From assembly GCF_027497355.1 (NCBI RefSeq), contig NZ_CP114909.1, forward strand, positions 4,917,001 through 4,981,000: DNA of 64,000 bases, given 5' to 3'. Source of the DNA: Micromonospora sp. WMMA1947 (GTDB taxonomy: Bacteria; Actinomycetota; Actinomycetes; Mycobacteriales; Micromonosporaceae). Below, one piece after another: positions 8,260 to 32,551 of the stretch (its first letter is position 1; the number at the start of each line of letters is the position of its first letter). A program made the translations under genes and the position numbers. The notes under the pieces were generated by a model, which was not told where the DNA came from, did not search any database, and saw nothing but the letters and a program-made list of their open reading frames with translations.

Positions 8260-10047
8260 ATGGCGGGTCGCGGGCGGCTGGACCGGCGTAGCGTGCTCGT
8301 GGCCGCAGGCGGGCTGGTGGTCGCCGGGATCGGCGTGCCGGTCGGGCTGGCCGCCACGAACGACCCGCCGCCGCCCCCGCCGCGCGGCCGTCGACCGATC
8401 AGCATGGCGATGCACCTGCACGCCTCGTTCAGCGAGGGCGTCGCCAGCTACGCCGCCCACCTCGACCAGGCCCGCCGCAACGGCGTCGACGTGCTCTGGT
8501 GGACCGACCACGACTTCCGGGTCGCCGCCCACGACCACCGCCGGGTCGTCCACTTCGACGGCCCGGAGGAACGCGAAGGCGGCCTGGCCTGGACCTGGCA
8601 GCCCGCCACCGAGGGACGGCTGACCGGCTCGGCCGCCGACTTCGTCGACGCGCCGGACGCCCCCGACGGCCCGGGCCGCGCGCTGCGCCTGGTCGCCGCC
8701 GGTTCCGGCACCCACTGGTACGCGGGCAAGGCATGGAACTGGACGCACACCGCCAACATCTCCGACACCACACTGCACCTCGACGTACGCCCCGAAGCGG
8801 CCGGCCGGGACGCCACGCTCACCATGGAACTCGCGCTGTCGCACCACCCGGCCGGACCCGGCCGGCCCGCCGGGCAACTCGTGCTGCGCTACCGCCTCGG
8901 CGGCGTGGACACGGTCCGGCACACGGTGGACGGCCGCCACGGCACCGTCGAACTGCCCGCCCCGGCCAGCGCCTGGCGGCGGCACACGTTCGACCTGCTC
9001 GCCGACGTGCGGCGGCTCTGGCCCGACATCGTCGCCGGGGACAACTCGCTGCGCGGGCTGCGCCTCGGCGTGACAGCGGCCGGTGGCACGCGCGGCGCGT
9101 ACCTGGTGGACCGGCTCGTCTTCGACCGCGCCCGCCGCGCCGGCCAGGCGGGCGAGGAACTGCGCGCCGAGGTGCTGCGCGGCTACGACGGCGCGTACCC
9201 CGGCGTCACCCACCACCGCGCGTACGAGGTGTCGATGGTGCGCCACCTCAACTGGTTCGGCGGCGACGGCACGCTGCCGCGCTTCCCGTCCCCGCCGTAC
9301 CGGGACAACGACGTCGACGCCACCGAACGGATGGTGGAGTTCCTGCACGCGCACGGCGGCGTGGTGTGCTGGAACCACCCGCTGGACACCGAACGCCGGG
9401 AATCCCTGGCCCGCCTGCTGGTCAGCCGCGACGCGCTCGGCGTCGACCTGATCGAGATCGGACGCCGGCCGGTCGAGGACCACCTCTGGGCGTACGACGT
9501 GGCGGCCCGCAACGCGATCCCGCTGACCGCGGTCGGGGTCACCGACGACCACGACGGCACGGACTGGCGGGCCGGCCGGGACCGCAACGTCACCTCGGTG
9601 TGGGCGGCCTCGACCGGCCGGGACGACCTGGTCGCGGCGCTGCGTGCCGGTCAGGCGTGGTTCGCCGACCTGGCCGGCTACCGGGGCGCGCTGGACCTGG
9701 AACTGGGTGGCCGCAGCGCGATGGGCGCGCTCGCCGTGCTCACCGAGGACACCGTCACCGTGCGGCTGCGCGCCACCGACCTGCCCGCCGGGGCCACGCT
9801 GGAGACGGTCACCGGTGAGGTCGACCGGGCCGGTGTCGCGGACCCGACACCGGCGGTCCGGGTCGACCAGGTGCCCTGGCGGCGGTTGCGGCAGGGCTGG
9901 CACGACCTGCCGGTGCGCGTCGGCGCCGGCAAGTACGTCCGCACCCAGGTCCGCGACCGCGACGGCGAGATAGTAGGCGCGAGCAACCCCGTCTGGCTGC
10001 TGCGCACCCCGCCACCGGCCGGAATCCCCCCGTCTCGCCGCTTCTGA
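8260..10047 (+). CDS. Exported PHP-domain (CehA/McbA-like) metallohydrolase
   Basis: A 595-residue protein with a Tat-type leader (LDRRSVLVAAGGLVVAG). PHP-like metal-binding motifs occur in order: MAMHLHASFSEG near residue 50, LWWTDHD near 86, VVCWNHPLD near 370 and GVTDDHDGTDW near 428, all His/Asp clusters expected to bind two or three divalent metals. Between residues 110 and 310 lies a beta-rich insert that looks like a carbohydrate-binding-type jelly roll. Predicted extracytoplasmic phosphoesterase or related hydrolase; substrate unknown. A GGGGGAG-like site precedes ATG 8260. A 63-bp palindrome follows the stop. Confidence 0.75.
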   Translation: MAGRGRLDRRSVLVAAGGLVVAGIGVPVGLAATNDPPPPPPRGRRPISMAMHLHASFSEGVASYAAHLDQARRNGVDVLWWTDHDFRVAAHDHRRVVHFDGPEEREGGLAWTWQPATEGRLTGSAADFVDAPDAPDGPGRALRLVAAGSGTHWYAGKAWNWTHTANISDTTLHLDVRPEAAGRDATLTMELALSHHPAGPGRPAGQLVLRYRLGGVDTVRHTVDGRHGTVELPAPASAWRRHTFDLLADVRRLWPDIVAGDNSLRGLRLGVTAAGGTRGAYLVDRLVFDRARRAGQAGEELRAEVLRGYDGAYPGVTHHRAYEVSMVRHLNWFGGDGTLPRFPSPPYRDNDVDATERMVEFLHAHGGVVCWNHPLDTERRESLARLLVSRDALGVDLIEIGRRPVEDHLWAYDVAARNAIPLTAVGVTDDHDGTDWRAGRDRNVTSVWAASTGRDDLVAALRAGQAWFADLAGYRGALDLELGGRSAMGALAVLTEDTVTVRLRATDLPAGATLETVTGEVDRAGVADPTPAVRVDQVPWRRLRQGWHDLPVRVGAGKYVRTQVRDRDGEIVGASNPVWLLRTPPPAGIPPSRRF

Positions 10048-10067
10048 CCCGCGCCCCCGCTCCCTCT

Positions 10068-10130
10068 CGTCGATCATGAAGTTGGCGGCGACGTCTGTCC
10101 TTTTTGTTCCTGTCAACTTCATGATCGACG
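10068..10130. repeat. 63-bp intergenic palindrome, family B copy 1
   Basis: Perfect 17-bp arms, CGTCGATCATGAAGTTG (10068-10084) and its complement (10114-10130), around 29 bases containing TTTTT. A second copy of identical length lies at 32489-32551. It sits 20 bp after the PHP gene and can serve as a terminator. Confidence 0.85.
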
Positions 10131-10339
10131 AGGTGGGGGCGGTTGCCGGGGTCTGGTACTCGTGGCGGTGTGTCCGATACCGACCACCTGCCGCGCCGCG
10201 CCGTGCCGCGCGAGCGCCCGGCCGCCGACCGGCGACCGGAAGCAGCCGTTGCGGCGATGGCCGGCAGCACCGGCCCGGTGAGAATGACGAGCGAGGCGGC
10301 GCCTGACATCCGCCCGTGGGACGCCGTGGAGTCTGTCGC

Positions 10340-11965
10340 ATGAGCGGCTGGGAACTGTCCGGATACACACCGGTCCGCCGGCTCGGCGCCGGCGCGTCGG
10401 GAAGCGTCGTGCTCGCCACCCACGACCCGACCGGCACCCCCGTCGCGATCAAGTACCTGGTCCGCGACCTGGGCGAGGACTCGGCGTTCCGGACCGCGTT
10501 CCGCGCCGAGGCCCGGCTTCTCGGCGAGATCGACGACCCGCACGTCAGCCGCCTCTACGAGTACGTGGAGAGCCCGCACGGCGCGGCCATCGTGATGGAA
10601 CTGGTCGACGGCGTCTCGCTGCGCCAGATGCTGCGCGAACACGGCCCGACCACGCCGGAGGCCGCGCTCTGCGTCCTCAAGGGCTCGCTCGCCGGCCTGG
10701 CCGCCGCGCACGCACACGGTGTCGTGCACCGTGACTACAAGCCGGAGAACGTCCTGGTCACCGGCACCGGGCTGAGCAAACTCGCCGACTTCGGCATCGC
10801 CATGCCGATCGGTCAGGGCTCCGACACCACGGTGTCCGGCACACCCCGCTACATGGCCCCCGAGCAGTGGACCGGCGCCCCGGCCGCCCCGGCGTGCGAC
10901 ATCTACGCCGCCACCGCCACGTTCTTCGAGTGCCTCACCGGCCGGCCCCCGTACCAGGGACCGGACCTGCTCTCCCTGCGCGACCAGCACGCCAGCGCGC
11001 CGATCCCCGCCGAGGCGGCACCCCCGCCGGTGCACGACCTGCTGCGCCACGGCATGGCCAAACGCCCCGACGAGCGGCCGCCGTCCGCCGAGGCGTTCCT
11101 GGAACTGCTGGAACAGGTCGCCGGCACCGGCTACGGCCCGCAATGGCAGGAACGAGGGCTGCGCGAGCTGGCCCGGCGGGCAGTGCTGCTGGCCGCGCTG
11201 TGGCCGTTCCCGGACCGGGCCGAGGGCGCCACCGCCGTCGCGCACACCGAACTCGGCACGACCGCCACCGGCCGGGGCGGACGGTTCCGCAAGGGCCGCA
11301 CCCGTACCGCCCTGGCCGCCGGCGCCGTGGCCGCCGCCGTCCTGGCCGGGGGCGCCGGCTACAGCTACGCCGCCCACGACGGCACGTCCACCGCCGGCCC
11401 GGCGAGCGCCGCTCCCGCCATCACCGGCGCACCCACACCGGACCCGACCGGCGCCGAGACGCCGAGCCCGTCACCGACACCCGCCCCGCCCAGCGCGTCC
11501 GCCGCGCCACCACCGCCCACGCCGCCGGACACCCCCGACCCGACCGGGACGCCGACCCGTACCGGCTCGCCCACCCCCAGCGCGTCCCCGAGCACCAGCG
11601 CGCCGCCGCCGGACGTGACCGCGCCGGTCGTGGACGGCGTCCGCGCCGACCCGGGTGAACTGGACCCGAAGGGCTGCCCCTACGGCACCAAGACCAGCAC
11701 CGTCTCCGCCGCCGTCACCGACGACCGCAGCGGTCCGGCCGCGCTCACCGTCACGTTCGGCTACACCCTCGACGGCGCCACCGGCACGGTCCGGATGGCC
11801 GCCGCCGGGCGCGGGCTGTTCACCGGCACGCTCGGCCCGCTGTCCACACCCAGGCGCAGCGCCCGCATCCCCGTCCGGGTCACCGCCGCCGACGCCGCCG
11901 GCAACACGACCACCTCGGCGTCACCGGTGTACGTGACGCTCTACCACGACTGCACCCCCGGCTAG
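10340..11965 (+). CDS. Transmembrane Ser/Thr protein kinase with extracellular Cys-pair beta domain
   Basis: A PknB-type kinase of 541 residues. Kinase domain at about 8-265: glycine loop LGAGASGSVVLA, ATP lysine in VAIKYL, catalytic loop HRDYKPENV with Asp near 131, ADFGIAMP near 153, and TVSGTPRYMAPEQW as the activation segment/P+1 loop. A juxtamembrane segment leads to one transmembrane helix near 324-345, a Pro/Thr/Ser linker to about 425, and a roughly 110-residue beta-rich extracellular domain with two cysteines instead of PASTA repeats. ATG 10340 chosen; a GTG at 10316 is in frame. It is followed 54 bp downstream by a membrane protein full of Thr motifs and then an MscS-like protein; the three probably form a signalling unit. 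Confidence 0.9.
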   Translation: MSGWELSGYTPVRRLGAGASGSVVLATHDPTGTPVAIKYLVRDLGEDSAFRTAFRAEARLLGEIDDPHVSRLYEYVESPHGAAIVMELVDGVSLRQMLREHGPTTPEAALCVLKGSLAGLAAAHAHGVVHRDYKPENVLVTGTGLSKLADFGIAMPIGQGSDTTVSGTPRYMAPEQWTGAPAAPACDIYAATATFFECLTGRPPYQGPDLLSLRDQHASAPIPAEAAPPPVHDLLRHGMAKRPDERPPSAEAFLELLEQVAGTGYGPQWQERGLRELARRAVLLAALWPFPDRAEGATAVAHTELGTTATGRGGRFRKGRTRTALAAGAVAAAVLAGGAGYSYAAHDGTSTAGPASAAPAITGAPTPDPTGAETPSPSPTPAPPSASAAPPPPTPPDTPDPTGTPTRTGSPTPSASPSTSAPPPDVTAPVVDGVRADPGELDPKGCPYGTKTSTVSAAVTDDRSGPAALTVTFGYTLDGATGTVRMAAAGRGLFTGTLGPLSTPRRSARIPVRVTAADAAGNTTTSASPVYVTLYHDCTPG

Positions 11966-12019
11966 GAGTACGACAGTGCCCGCTGCCCCGCACCGCAGCC
12001 CGTCCCCGGGACGGCCGGC

Positions 12020-13291
12020 GTGACCCGTCCCGACGAACCGACCGAGGCGCTGCCCACCCGTGCCCTGCCGATCACCGGTGACGCGGACGCCGCCGAGCCC
12101 ACCGTCCACCTCCCCGGGCCGGTGGGCGACCAGCCACCCGCCGAACCCACAGTCCACCTGACCCCGATCCCCGACGACCGCACCGCGGACCTTTCCGCCT
12201 CGGTCACGCCGACGCCGCCCGATGCCGAGCCGACCGTGCACCTGCGGCCGGGCCGGGCAGACGACGCGGGCGAGGCGACCGTCCATCTCCCTCCTCCGGC
12301 GCCGGACAGCGCGGCGGCGGAGCCGACGGTGGCCCTGCGTCCCACCCCGGACGGCAGAGCCGAGGAGGCCGCAGCGTCGTCCAGTCCGGCACCGGAGGGT
12401 GCGGCAGGGGAGCCCACGGTGAACCTGCGCGCGGCTCCGGACCAGGACGCCGGGGAGGTGACGGTCCATTTCCGTGCGGCCCCCGGCAGTCCAGCCGGCG
12501 AGCCGACGGTGAGTCTGCGTCCGGCTCCGGACCAGGCTGCGGGGGAGGCGACCGTCCACATGCGCGCTCCCGCGGGAAACGTGACCGGGCAGGCCACCGT
12601 CTACCCGCGTCCGAGCGCGGAACCGCCCCAGGCCATCGGCGCCGAGCCGACCGCGTCGTGGCAGCCGACCGCCTCCTGGCAGCCCACCGGCGTACCGCAT
12701 CGGGGCCACCCCACCGGGACGGCGGCGACCGGCGCCGGTGCGTACCCGGATCGGACCGGCCAGGCGCGGGCGGTGAGTGGCGTCCCGGCGCCGGGCGGCG
12801 AGCTGCGCTTCGGACCGGGCGTGCCGGCGACGCCGCCGCCCGCGCCGCCCTGGCCCACCGCACCCCCGATCCGCCCGCGCCCGGTCTGGCGTCGCGTCGT
12901 CTCGGTGCTCTCCACGCTGCTCACCGTGGTGCTGTTGCTGGCGGTCGGCCTCTACCTGTGGCAGCGGTTGCGCCCGCTGGAGGTCGAGGGGGTCACCGTC
13001 GCGGTGCCCCGGCCGGCGGGTGTCGCCTGCGACGTGACTGTCGACGTGGTGGCCACCGTGCGTACCAACGGGCGCGGCGGGACGATCCGGTACCAGTGGT
13101 TCCGCTCCGACGCGCCGCCCGGCGCCGTGCTCACCGAACGGGTCGGCGGCGGACAGCAGACCGCGGTGCTCACCCTCAAGTGGACGTTCACCGGCGTCGG
13201 TACGACCACCGGGATCGCCACCGTCAACATCATCGAACCGTCGACGGCGCAGGCCAGCACCCGCGTCGTCTACCGCTGCCCCGGCGGCTGA
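12020..13291 (+). CDS. Single-pass membrane protein with an array of E-P-T-V-H-L-type threonine motifs
   Basis: I do not recognise a named family. Residues 1-215 are acidic, Pro/Ala-rich and probably disordered, and carry about 12 copies of [E/D]-x-T-x-x-hydrophobic: EPTVHL (three times; the first Thr is residue 28), EATVHL, EPTVAL, EPTVNL, EVTVHF, EPTVSL, EATVHM, EPTEAL, DRTADL and EPTASW (Thr about 211). A Pro-rich stretch precedes one transmembrane helix near 292-314 (TLLTVVLLLAVGLYLW), then a 105-residue beta-rich external domain with two cysteines. GTG 12020 is the only sensible start, 54 bp after the kinase gene. Acidic at -2 with hydrophobic at +3 matches phospho-Thr sites read by FHA domains, so I infer a multi-site substrate of the upstream kinase. 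Confidence 0.75.
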   Translation: MTRPDEPTEALPTRALPITGDADAAEPTVHLPGPVGDQPPAEPTVHLTPIPDDRTADLSASVTPTPPDAEPTVHLRPGRADDAGEATVHLPPPAPDSAAAEPTVALRPTPDGRAEEAAASSSPAPEGAAGEPTVNLRAAPDQDAGEVTVHFRAAPGSPAGEPTVSLRPAPDQAAGEATVHMRAPAGNVTGQATVYPRPSAEPPQAIGAEPTASWQPTASWQPTGVPHRGHPTGTAATGAGAYPDRTGQARAVSGVPAPGGELRFGPGVPATPPPAPPWPTAPPIRPRPVWRRVVSVLSTLLTVVLLLAVGLYLWQRLRPLEVEGVTVAVPRPAGVACDVTVDVVATVRTNGRGGTIRYQWFRSDAPPGAVLTERVGGGQQTAVLTLKWTFTGVGTTTGIATVNIIEPSTAQASTRVVYRCPGG

Positions 13292-13364
13292 CCGCGTTTC
13301 CCCGCGCGCGGGTCCGGGTAGCCCCACCCGAACAAACCTGGACCACGCACGTGGAGGCCCTTCG

Positions 13365-14384
13365 ATGAGAGACAACTTCGGGGACGCGGTGGGCGACGCG
13401 TTCCGATCGGTGATGCTGTTCCTGCCCAAGGCGGTCGCGTTCGTCGCGATCCTGATCGCCGGCTGGCTGATCGCCAAGGCCGTGCTCAAGCTCGTGGACA
13501 AGGTGCTGGAGCGGGTCCACTTCGACCGGGCCGTCGAGCGCGGCGGGATCAAGACCGCGCTGGCCCGCTCGAAGTACGACGCCAGCGACATCGTCGCGAA
13601 GCTGGCCTACTACGGCGTGCTGCTGGTCACGCTGCAGCTCGCGTTCGGCATCTGGGGCCCGAACCCCATCTCCGACCTGATCGCCGGCGTGATCGCCTGG
13701 CTGCCCCGGGCGTTCGTCGCCATCGTCATCGTGGTGGTCGCCGCGGCCATCGCCCGCGCGGTCAAGGACATCATCTCCAGCGCGCTCGGCGGCCTCTCGT
13801 ACGGCCGGGTGCTGGCCAACCTCGCCTCCGTGTTCATCCTGGGCCTGGGTGTCATCGCCGCGCTCAACCAGATCGGCGTCGCCACCACCGTCACCACCCC
13901 GGTGCTGATCGCGGTGCTCGCCACCGTGGGCGGCATCCTGGTCGTCGGCGTCGGCGGCGGGCTGGTCCGGCCGATGCAGAGCCGCTGGGAGAACTGGCTG
14001 ACCCGGGCCGAGGAGGAGTCGCGCACCATCGCCACCCACGCCCGCGCGTACCAGGCCGGCCGTCGTGACGTCGAGGCCCGTCTGGCCGCCACCGGCCCGT
14101 ACGCGGACTCCGAGCTGACCCAGCCGGTGAGCCGCGACGCCGAGGCGGACCGCACTCAGCCGGTGCCCGCGTACCAGGGCACCCCGCCGGCCCCGGCCGC
14201 CGCGGACGCCACCGAGCCGGTGCCGCCGCAGGCGGGCGCGGAGGCGACGCAGCACATTCCGGCGTACGCCGACTCCGAGCGCACCCAGCCGACCACGCCG
14301 CGCCAGACGACGGCCGAGCAGGCCACGGACAGCGAGGCCACCATGGTCATCCCGCAGGCCGACGTGGAGAAGTTCCGCCGCTGA
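13365..14384 (+). CDS. MscS/CmpX-like conserved-TM-helix membrane protein with Thr-motif tail
   Basis: A 339-residue protein. Residues 1-215 contain five or so hydrophobic helices with the conserved-TM-helix pattern of small mechanosensitive-channel-like (CmpX) proteins: FLPKAVAFVAILIAGWLIAK, WLPRAFVAIVIVVVAAAIAR and a Gly-rich segment ending in VGVGGGLVRPMQ. The tail (about 245-339) is acidic and disordered with six motifs ELTQPV (Thr252), DRTQPV, DATEPV, EATQHI, ERTQPT and EATMVI (Thr326). Most share acidic -2 and hydrophobic +3 with the motifs in the preceding gene. GGAGG-like AGGCCC precedes ATG 13365, 73 bp after that gene, and a strong hairpin follows. Osmotic or envelope-tension gating under kinase control is inferred from family and context. 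Confidence 0.8.
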   Translation: MRDNFGDAVGDAFRSVMLFLPKAVAFVAILIAGWLIAKAVLKLVDKVLERVHFDRAVERGGIKTALARSKYDASDIVAKLAYYGVLLVTLQLAFGIWGPNPISDLIAGVIAWLPRAFVAIVIVVVAAAIARAVKDIISSALGGLSYGRVLANLASVFILGLGVIAALNQIGVATTVTTPVLIAVLATVGGILVVGVGGGLVRPMQSRWENWLTRAEEESRTIATHARAYQAGRRDVEARLAATGPYADSELTQPVSRDAEADRTQPVPAYQGTPPAPAAADATEPVPPQAGAEATQHIPAYADSERTQPTTPRQTTAEQATDSEATMVIPQADVEKFRR

Positions 14385-32488: not shown

Positions 32489-32551
32489 CGTCGATCATGA
32501 GGTTGACGGCGACAAACCGGACCGGGACCGCCGTCAACCTCATGATCAACG
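32489..32551. repeat. 63-bp intergenic palindrome, family B copy 2
   Basis: Left arm CGTCGATCATGAGGTTGACG, right arm its near-perfect complement ending at 32551. Same 63-bp length and end sequences as 10068-10130. Lies just past the stop of the subtilisin inhibitor gene. Confidence 0.85.

Follow-up and report, generated by a model that had tools for sequence, protein, structure and literature searches.

FHA domains are specific for phosphothreonine, and they recur in the described systems closest to the one reported here. In GarA/OdhI, which is soluble, one or two acidic-x-Thr-x-x-hydrophobic sites are read by an FHA domain intramolecularly; the PpkA-Fha-TssL pathway of the type VI secretion system (T6SS) uses a single site, and the gene of the kinase PknF neighbours Rv1747. 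In the T6SS pathway, phosphothreonine on a membrane protein is reported to be read by an FHA protein (PMC3953482). In MviN (Rv3910)/FhaA and the ActPs3 pseudokinase family, phosphorylation of a membrane protein's tail by a Ser/Thr kinase leads to the recruitment of an FHA protein (PMC12599244, PMC11898655), and in Rv1747/PknF a disordered linker accompanied by FHA domains forms condensates once a Ser/Thr kinase has phosphorylated it, which PstP reverses (PMC9312465). Here we describe a locus in a 64,000-nucleotide stretch of Micromonospora sp. WMMA1947 (contig NZ_CP114909.1, positions 4,917,001 to 4,981,000; hereafter the window), where the gene of a receptor-type Ser/Thr kinase is followed by genes for two membrane proteins, P2 and P3, and where P2 carries an array of acidic-x-Thr-x-x-hydrophobic motifs. 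We propose that P2, once phosphorylated by the kinase, would serve as a membrane-anchored multivalent phosphothreonine docking platform, a reading to which the sequence comparisons below give an even chance.

The original prediction for this locus held that no system of this form had been described. This goes too far: MviN-FhaA and Rv1747-PknF follow a similar phosphothreonine/FHA logic, and the logic proposed for P2 is, by analogy, like that of the former and, for phosphorylation-driven clustering, like that of the latter, with P2 belonging to neither family. A sister form of P2, present in Catellatospora and relatives, carries a pseudokinase (a predicted fold) and about one motif, and its pseudokinase precedes the Thr site as in MviN. 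Unlike MviN, P2 has no flippase (MurJ) part and has one membrane span (assigned by eye), a Cys-pair outer domain of its own and its own adjacent kinase; the window P2 differs further in having no pseudokinase and about 12 sites. A pseudokinase profile matched PknA best, and the absence of MviN from the matches listed (60 of 347) has no bearing either way. Unlike Rv1747, which combines FHA domains and linker in one protein, P2 has the sites and no FHA domain, and Pfam finds no ABC transporter in P2 or P3. What is new is the P2 family as such, together with the array that apparently took the place of a pseudokinase; no description of the kinase-P2 module was found in the open-licence literature searched, most subscription papers lying outside it. 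As a separate observation, a gene for a two-FHA ABC transporter of Rv1747-like layout (L176, 2-3415, − strand) lies one gene from a Streptomyces-type kinase-P2 pair, on the opposite strand.

P2 carries a conserved array of threonine motifs

The kinase, P2 and P3 are encoded by three consecutive genes on the + strand (Table 1). P2 matches no Pfam or NCBIfam family, and its long N-terminus, in which Ala, Pro and Thr abound, probably lies inside the cell, because the N-terminal side of the span is Arg-rich. The original prediction counted about 12 copies of [ED]-x-T-x-x-[LFMW] in this region, and 12 are indeed present within the 262 residues that precede the RFGPGV element, where shuffling these residues 2000 times produced 0.19 motifs on average and never more than 3. 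For a codon comparison, the definition was relaxed to accept Q as the first and P as the last residue, and the resulting 14 motif-like copies of the window were compared pairwise. Their motif codons were identical in 140, synonymous in 134 and non-synonymous in 272 cases, and the six flanking codons on either side gave 56/52/438 and 50/55/441 in the same order. The copies are synonymously diverse and their flanks divergent in protein sequence, so they did not arise as a single recent repeat of the DNA. Chance, or a single recent DNA repeat, was thus ruled out as the origin of the motif by the shuffles, the codon diversity and the invariance of the threonine described below. A protein search of the host genome with the array returned P2 itself and two chance-level matches (E 0.07 and 0.24; L200), which leaves room for differently worded arrays such as the P3 tail.

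The arrays are also conserved in related species, as the prediction had expected beforehand. Homologues were examined in two samples drawn from the best ~8000 candidates, one of database homologues of P2 (120 listed of 212; here +3 could also be I or V) and one of Streptomyces proteins (120 listed of 806). The proteins of the first sample carry 0-18 copies with a median of 6, and the motif is enriched at p<0.01 in 103 of the 120. Similarly, 27 of 30 distinct array-type N-termini, the window included, reached p<=0.004 in a shuffle test; the loci L041 and L042, each fetched twice, were dropped from this test and from the kinase tree below, and L094, which has no anchor, stood outside the test together with the remaining pseudokinase-type rows.

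The motif strongly prefers threonine. With its third position left open ([ED]-x-?-[VI]-x-[LFM]), the motif was found 459 times in the first sample, with Thr in 453 cases, Ala in 4, Arg and Pro in 1 each and Ser in 0, in regions that contain 745 Ser and 2511 Thr overall. The Streptomyces wording, [ED]-x-?-[QRE]-V-[LFM], gave Thr 185, Ala 3, Ser 2, Pro 1 and Ile 1 (n=192). This near exclusion of Ser is what one would expect if the motif is read as phosphothreonine, for instance by an FHA domain, or if the kinase has a strong preference for Thr.

Among the 806 Streptomyces matches, an S-A-T-V-L-G/A-S site occurs in 114 of the 120 listed, and the motif is enriched at p<0.01 in 45 of them. The Streptomyces arrays differ from those of Micromonospora in spacers and wording (GEQTRVLGPA in L182, GEATQVLRPA in P0158), which suggests that they arose independently. 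Equivalent arrays on different backgrounds argue that selection acts on the motif itself. This bears on the view that the arrays have no role in phospho-signalling and are low-complexity repeats in a disordered tail, under weak selection or none: the wide range of copy number, the A-, P- and T-rich composition of the array regions and the recent-looking duplications in several arrays (L083, P0158) would suit such a history, but the window copies agree in protein while varying synonymously between diverged flanks, the motif Thr is nearly invariant, and Streptomyces has its own spacers. We therefore regard neutral repeats as improbable.

The kinase gene adjoins P2 across the class

The kinase is of the Hanks type, with a Pkinase match of 149.8 bits (cut-off 31.7) and VAIK, HRDYKPEN and ADFG in its translation, and its closest sequence matches in the PDB are PknE, PknA, StkP and PknB. 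An N-terminal kinase domain is followed by a span (by eye), a Pro/Thr/Ser-rich linker and an outer Cys-pair domain. An assignment as a PknB/PASTA kinase was rejected, since NCBIfam PknB_PASTA_kin scored 187.7 bits against a cut-off of 450 and covered the kinase domain alone. The claim that kinase and P2 each have a Cys-pair beta domain outside the membrane holds for the cysteines, of which the predicted extracytoplasmic parts (topology by eye) contain two each; the beta fold is predicted for P2 only, by a structure model of a distant homologue in which the outer domain is all-beta. Compared with PDB sequences, the P2 outer domain gave a chance-level match only (E 1.9). The R-F/Y-G-x-G element is present in 22/22 aligned P2 proteins of both types, an invariance that is partly by construction because the rows were cut at this pattern.

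Matches to the kinase outer domain were found in 15 of 41 genomes searched, the own genome included, and every one belongs to the same genus; in the kinase tree the closest named relatives at the locus are Micromonospora marina and M. tulbaghiae (the host genome measures 6.31 Mb). P2 is more widespread. Of the 61 genomes in the relatives set, 19 have homologues (counting the own genome and weak matches), and the outer domain with its span occurs in 35 of 150 Micromonosporaceae genomes (11 of 44 genera) and in 45/394 genomes of the class, weak matches included, or 33/394 at E<=1e-20, with up to 9 candidates scored per genome. A similar kinase lies directly upstream of P2 in 48/55 Micromonosporaceae loci, which include the window and at least two twice-fetched loci (L041, L042), and in 18/20 class-wide loci, where 'similar' implies no orthology for kinases outside Micromonosporaceae. 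One of the misses, L029, is cut by the contig end and has the kinase outer domain directly upstream. The kinase tree holds 48 rows, with none from L029, L090, L092 and L109 and with L049 missed by the domain-cutting pattern; the row of L085 (genome G061) is unreliable, as its kinase and P2 occupy more than one reading frame and the frames were read apart. Among 25 genomes of the same genus, 13 contain both the kinase outer domain and P2 and 8 contain neither; 2 have the kinase domain without P2, and in another 2 P2 stands without it, as a partial match in each case (p 0.002, from a hand count of adjacent genes in related genomes).

In Mycobacterium tuberculosis, the phosphopeptides that disappear when PknA is depleted favour acidic residues at −1 and from −3 to −6, as well as Pro at −1 and +2, with Leu/Val at +3 and Lys/Arg at +4 (PMC7164672). 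The commonest motif of the window, E-P-T-V-x-L followed by R or P, places Pro at −1 and Leu at +3 as in these PknA-dependent phosphopeptides, and Arg occupies +4 after 6 of the 9 E-x-T-V copies. By analogy, the neighbouring kinase may share a PknA-like preference. The original claim, that actinobacterial kinases favour acidic residues before Thr and a hydrophobic one at +3, is supported in so far as the motif resembles this published preference, being acidic upstream of Thr with Pro at −1 and Leu at +3; its acidic residue, however, stands at −2, and across the homologues Arg +4 is weakly enriched.

Three observations concern the kinase and its surroundings. A T-x-[LIV]-G-type element precedes the span in many kinases (ATTILG, ASTALG, AHTELG; residues ~295-306 of the window kinase, and the L033-L106 kinases); it resembles the ATRLG site of P2 and is possibly a second docking site. 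Just 5′ of the kinase gene (window 10060-10140) lies a palindrome with arms TCGATCATGAAGTTG and a fold of −51.7 kcal/mol (z −9). A related half-site is found at 32491 and similar wording within open reading frames around the FHA locus L113, and the palindrome may be a dispersed intergenic repeat. Upstream of the kinase, window 8260-10047 encodes a 595-amino-acid protein without a significant Pfam family.

Pseudokinase-type P2 co-segregates with an FHA gene

In loci of the sister form, hereafter pseudokinase-type, a gene for an FHA protein lies upstream of the kinase (FHA domain at 51.7-60.7 bits in four examples, cut-off 20.7). It is present at 18 of 22 pseudokinase-type loci and at none of 32 array-type loci. 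Genome-wide, it was found in 16/17 pseudokinase-type genomes and in 0/14 others, namely 13 array-type genomes and G061 (p 6e-8, uncorrected for kinship); this search took in 17 of the 22 pseudokinase-type genomes, and in the remaining five the locus itself contains the gene (L101-L105). Three Actinoplanes-type genomes contain a distant match (34-35%) to the FHA protein from which the FHA part is absent. In L090 and L092, where P2 has no neighbouring kinase, the FHA gene and P2 adjoin. At the level of sequence comparison, this co-segregation is the strongest genomic reason for linking P2 to an FHA reading.

Further features of these loci are set out here as observations in their own right. Besides its FHA domain, the FHA protein of the sister form (L093 1754-3637 and equivalents) has hydrophobic segments, a PqqD-like match of borderline score and matches of M50-peptidase and zinc-ribbon type that stay below threshold, an odd combination. 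A protein with a glycine-rich hydrophobic end (L093 1-1638 and equivalents) is recurrently encoded upstream of the FHA gene. Tandem kinase genes precede pseudokinase-type P2 in L181, L187, L188, L189 and L192 (family f31), and in L090, which has no adjoining kinase, a GGDEF protein gene follows P2 (4818-6317, − strand).

The host genome has only four FHA domains, all away from the locus. Two of them neighbour each other, in what we take to be FhaA and FhaB, and the others belong to a 150-amino-acid protein (N-terminus DVTSTLNLG), presumably GarA-like, and to a 156-amino-acid protein. These four general FHA proteins would be the likeliest readers of the array. Among the class-wide loci, FHA-like matches lie nearby in 3/20 (L176, L177, L194); as most have no nearby FHA gene, a direct link to FHA exists only in the sister form of Micromonosporaceae.

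The same distribution can be read differently, namely that the arrays are kinase substrates and not FHA docking sites, and that they buffer, tether or autoinhibit the kinase as a substrate sink or co-receptor, with the P2 outer domain co-sensing. The almost constant adjacency of kinase and P2, the lack of an FHA gene near array-type loci and the outer Cys-pair domains on both proteins are in its favour, whereas in the sister loci an FHA gene accompanies P2 even where no kinase stands beside P2 (L090, L092), and the choice of Thr over Ser suits FHA reading, although a Thr-preferring kinase fits it too. We consider this substrate-sink account the less probable one, and yet the most serious of the alternatives.

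The sister form also resembles EssB/YukC of the type VII secretion system T7SSb, whose partners are the FHA domains of EssC/YukB: both have a pseudokinase, one membrane span, an outer domain and an FHA partner, and the parts come in the same order. The FHA domains of YukB are reported to be bound by the YukC pseudokinase, a contact seen in E. coli tests (PMC9600267). Furthermore, a ~1600-amino-acid FHA-FtsK/SpoIIIE protein (L194, 512-5335) is encoded near a distant P2 homologue with DPTATRGR repeats. P2 could accordingly be related to this pseudokinase, which binds the FHA domains of an FtsK-type ATPase. EssB/YukC, however, is a secretion component, and the outer folds differ: the C-terminal segment of EssB is reported to be helical (PMC3694306), whereas that of P2 is predicted to be all-beta from the model of a distant homologue. 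In addition, the window P2 has no kinase match by Pfam or by the Catellatospora pseudokinase query, and no T7SS gene was present among the Pfam-scanned neighbours, in a scan that was not aimed at T7SS genes. Such a relationship is therefore very unlikely.

P3 is loosely tied to the kinase-P2 pair

P3 contains two stretches of PF05552 (65.3 bits, cut-off 22), the sole Pfam family above cut-off. The description of P3 as MscS/CmpX-like stands as far as this family goes and fails for the NCBIfam 'msc' model (NF033912), which P3 matches at 39.1 bits with a cut-off of 100. Its closest PDB match is an MscS at E=0.093, and an AF2 model built from 9 close sequences is poor (mean pLDDT, the model's per-residue confidence, 49.7), with an unstructured tail. 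P3 as a proven channel was accordingly rejected, since no MscS core or curated channel family was found above cut-off; with PF05552 alone above cut-off, 'channel' is a label and not a finding.

The P3 tail bears the six related motifs that had been predicted, five of them matching [ED]xTxx[LFMWIV] (mean 0.27 in 1000 shuffles) and the sixth being ERTQPT; V or I occupies +3, where P2 has L, F, M or W. Across 23 P3 tails, 100 motifs were observed and 5.2 expected. The three-gene order is kept in part: the upstream kinase is general in Micromonosporaceae, and P3 follows P2 in 26/28 Micromonospora array-type loci (two loci fetched twice), but a search of the four Actinoplanes-type and the 22 pseudokinase-type loci yielded no P3. 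Motif-tailed P3 is also present where P2 is not detected, in 15 Micromonospora genomes. Thirteen of the 30 P3 loci come from such genomes and have no kinase within 1.5 kb, and their tails have 3 to 10 motif matches (overlaps counted); in L126 and L131 the kinase is followed directly by P3, with no P2 between. Since the tail motifs occur in P2-less genomes, the sequence evidence suggests that P3 is probably phosphorylated by the kinase independently of P2, to which it is loosely tied, and is not a fixed part of the module.

These data also weaken the originally proposed link to channel gating, in which the three genes would form one pathway and FHA proteins would connect the array of P2 with the tail of P3, allowing an external signal to gate a P3 channel. 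The regular position of P3 after P2 in Micromonospora and the conserved, enriched tail motifs point in this direction, but motif-tailed P3 without P2, its absence from the Actinoplanes-type and pseudokinase-type loci searched and its unproven channel function point away, and we hold a single gating pathway to be doubtful, with a low probability.

Table 1. Features of the kinase-P2-P3 locus in the window
Feature	Position	Strand	Basis
Receptor-type Ser/Thr protein kinase, 541 amino acids	10340..11965	+	Pfam Pkinase 1.2e-43; translation
Catalytic domain of kinase, Pfam residues 9-250	10364..11089	+	Pfam
Kinase outer Cys-pair domain	11630..11962	+	Matches in related genomes
P2, single-pass membrane protein, 423 amino acids, GTG start; candidate phosphothreonine display protein	12020..13291	+	Homologue searches
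P2 N-terminal array, 12 copies of [ED]xTxx[LFMW], core E-P/A-T-V-x-L	12035..12661	+	Motif and shuffle tests
RFGPGVP element preceding P2 span	12806..12826	+	Alignment
P2 transmembrane helix, predicted by eye	12896..12961	+	Sequence; helix 391-423 in homologue model
P2 outer Cys-pair domain, family-conserved part	12962..13288	+	Homologue searches, alignment, model
P3, PF05552 (MS_channel_1st_1) membrane protein, 339 amino acids	13365..14384	+	Pfam
P3 C-terminal tail: ELTQPV, DRTQPV, DATEPV, EATQHI, ERTQPT, EATMVI	14112..14354	+	Motif scan

A proposed model of P2 as a multivalent docking platform

We propose the following model for the kinase-P2 module. The kinase would sense an external signal via its outer Cys-pair domain and phosphorylate P2 on threonines of its N-terminus, which is disordered and cytoplasmic. 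An FHA domain could then dock at each E/D-x-pT-x-x-L/F site, turning P2 into a multivalent membrane scaffold whose occupancy would be set by kinase activity. In the ancestral-looking form, P2 would have a pseudokinase and about one site, and a neighbouring gene would supply a dedicated FHA protein. In Micromonospora and Actinoplanes, where the pseudokinase and the FHA gene were not found, the site would have been multiplied, and some Streptomyces would have come to arrays of their own; this direction of change is what we infer.

Several observations weigh against this model. (i) The acidic residue of the motif stands at −2, while the published logo is acidic at −1 and −3 to −6, and Arg +4 is only 1.3-fold enriched in the 120 listed database homologues. 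(ii) No FHA gene lies near the window locus or the other array-type loci. (iii) The array is uneven: 17 of the 120 listed database homologues miss p<0.01, three array-type N-termini (L048, L087, L088) hold one motif each, and 75 of the 120 listed Streptomyces proteins show no enrichment at p<0.01. Repeat duplication moreover inflates the shuffle tests, and the homologues are related and not independent. (iv) The exact motif was not seen in 4 of 22 pseudokinase-type linkers (L089, L091, L092, L094), the scan of L092 being limited to 180 residues, beyond which its motifs lie. (v) Two Micromonospora genomes (G008, G012) keep the kinase without a detectable P2.

A broader proposal is more tentative than the docking platform itself, and we advance it as a possibility that is probably too bold: the pair would be a widespread unnamed actinobacterial receptor-kinase module, whose partner protein is a bacterial counterpart of the multi-site adaptor scaffolds of animal receptors, and in which a one-site pseudokinase scaffold has been replaced at least two times independently (in Micromonospora/Actinoplanes and in Streptomyces) by arrays of up to ~18 phosphothreonine sites, at which FHA proteins assemble into clusters on the membrane under control of the kinase. 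If true, Streptomyces and Micromonospora would share a conserved pair of a kinase and its candidate substrate, with a natural series of variants (one site and a pseudokinase, a pseudokinase and several sites, an array only). Whether multivalent phosphothreonine display can replace a pseudokinase scaffold would then be a directly testable question, and the acidic-x-Thr-x-x-Leu motifs, often repeated, in hundreds of 'hypothetical' actinobacterial proteins of the P2 family would be explained.

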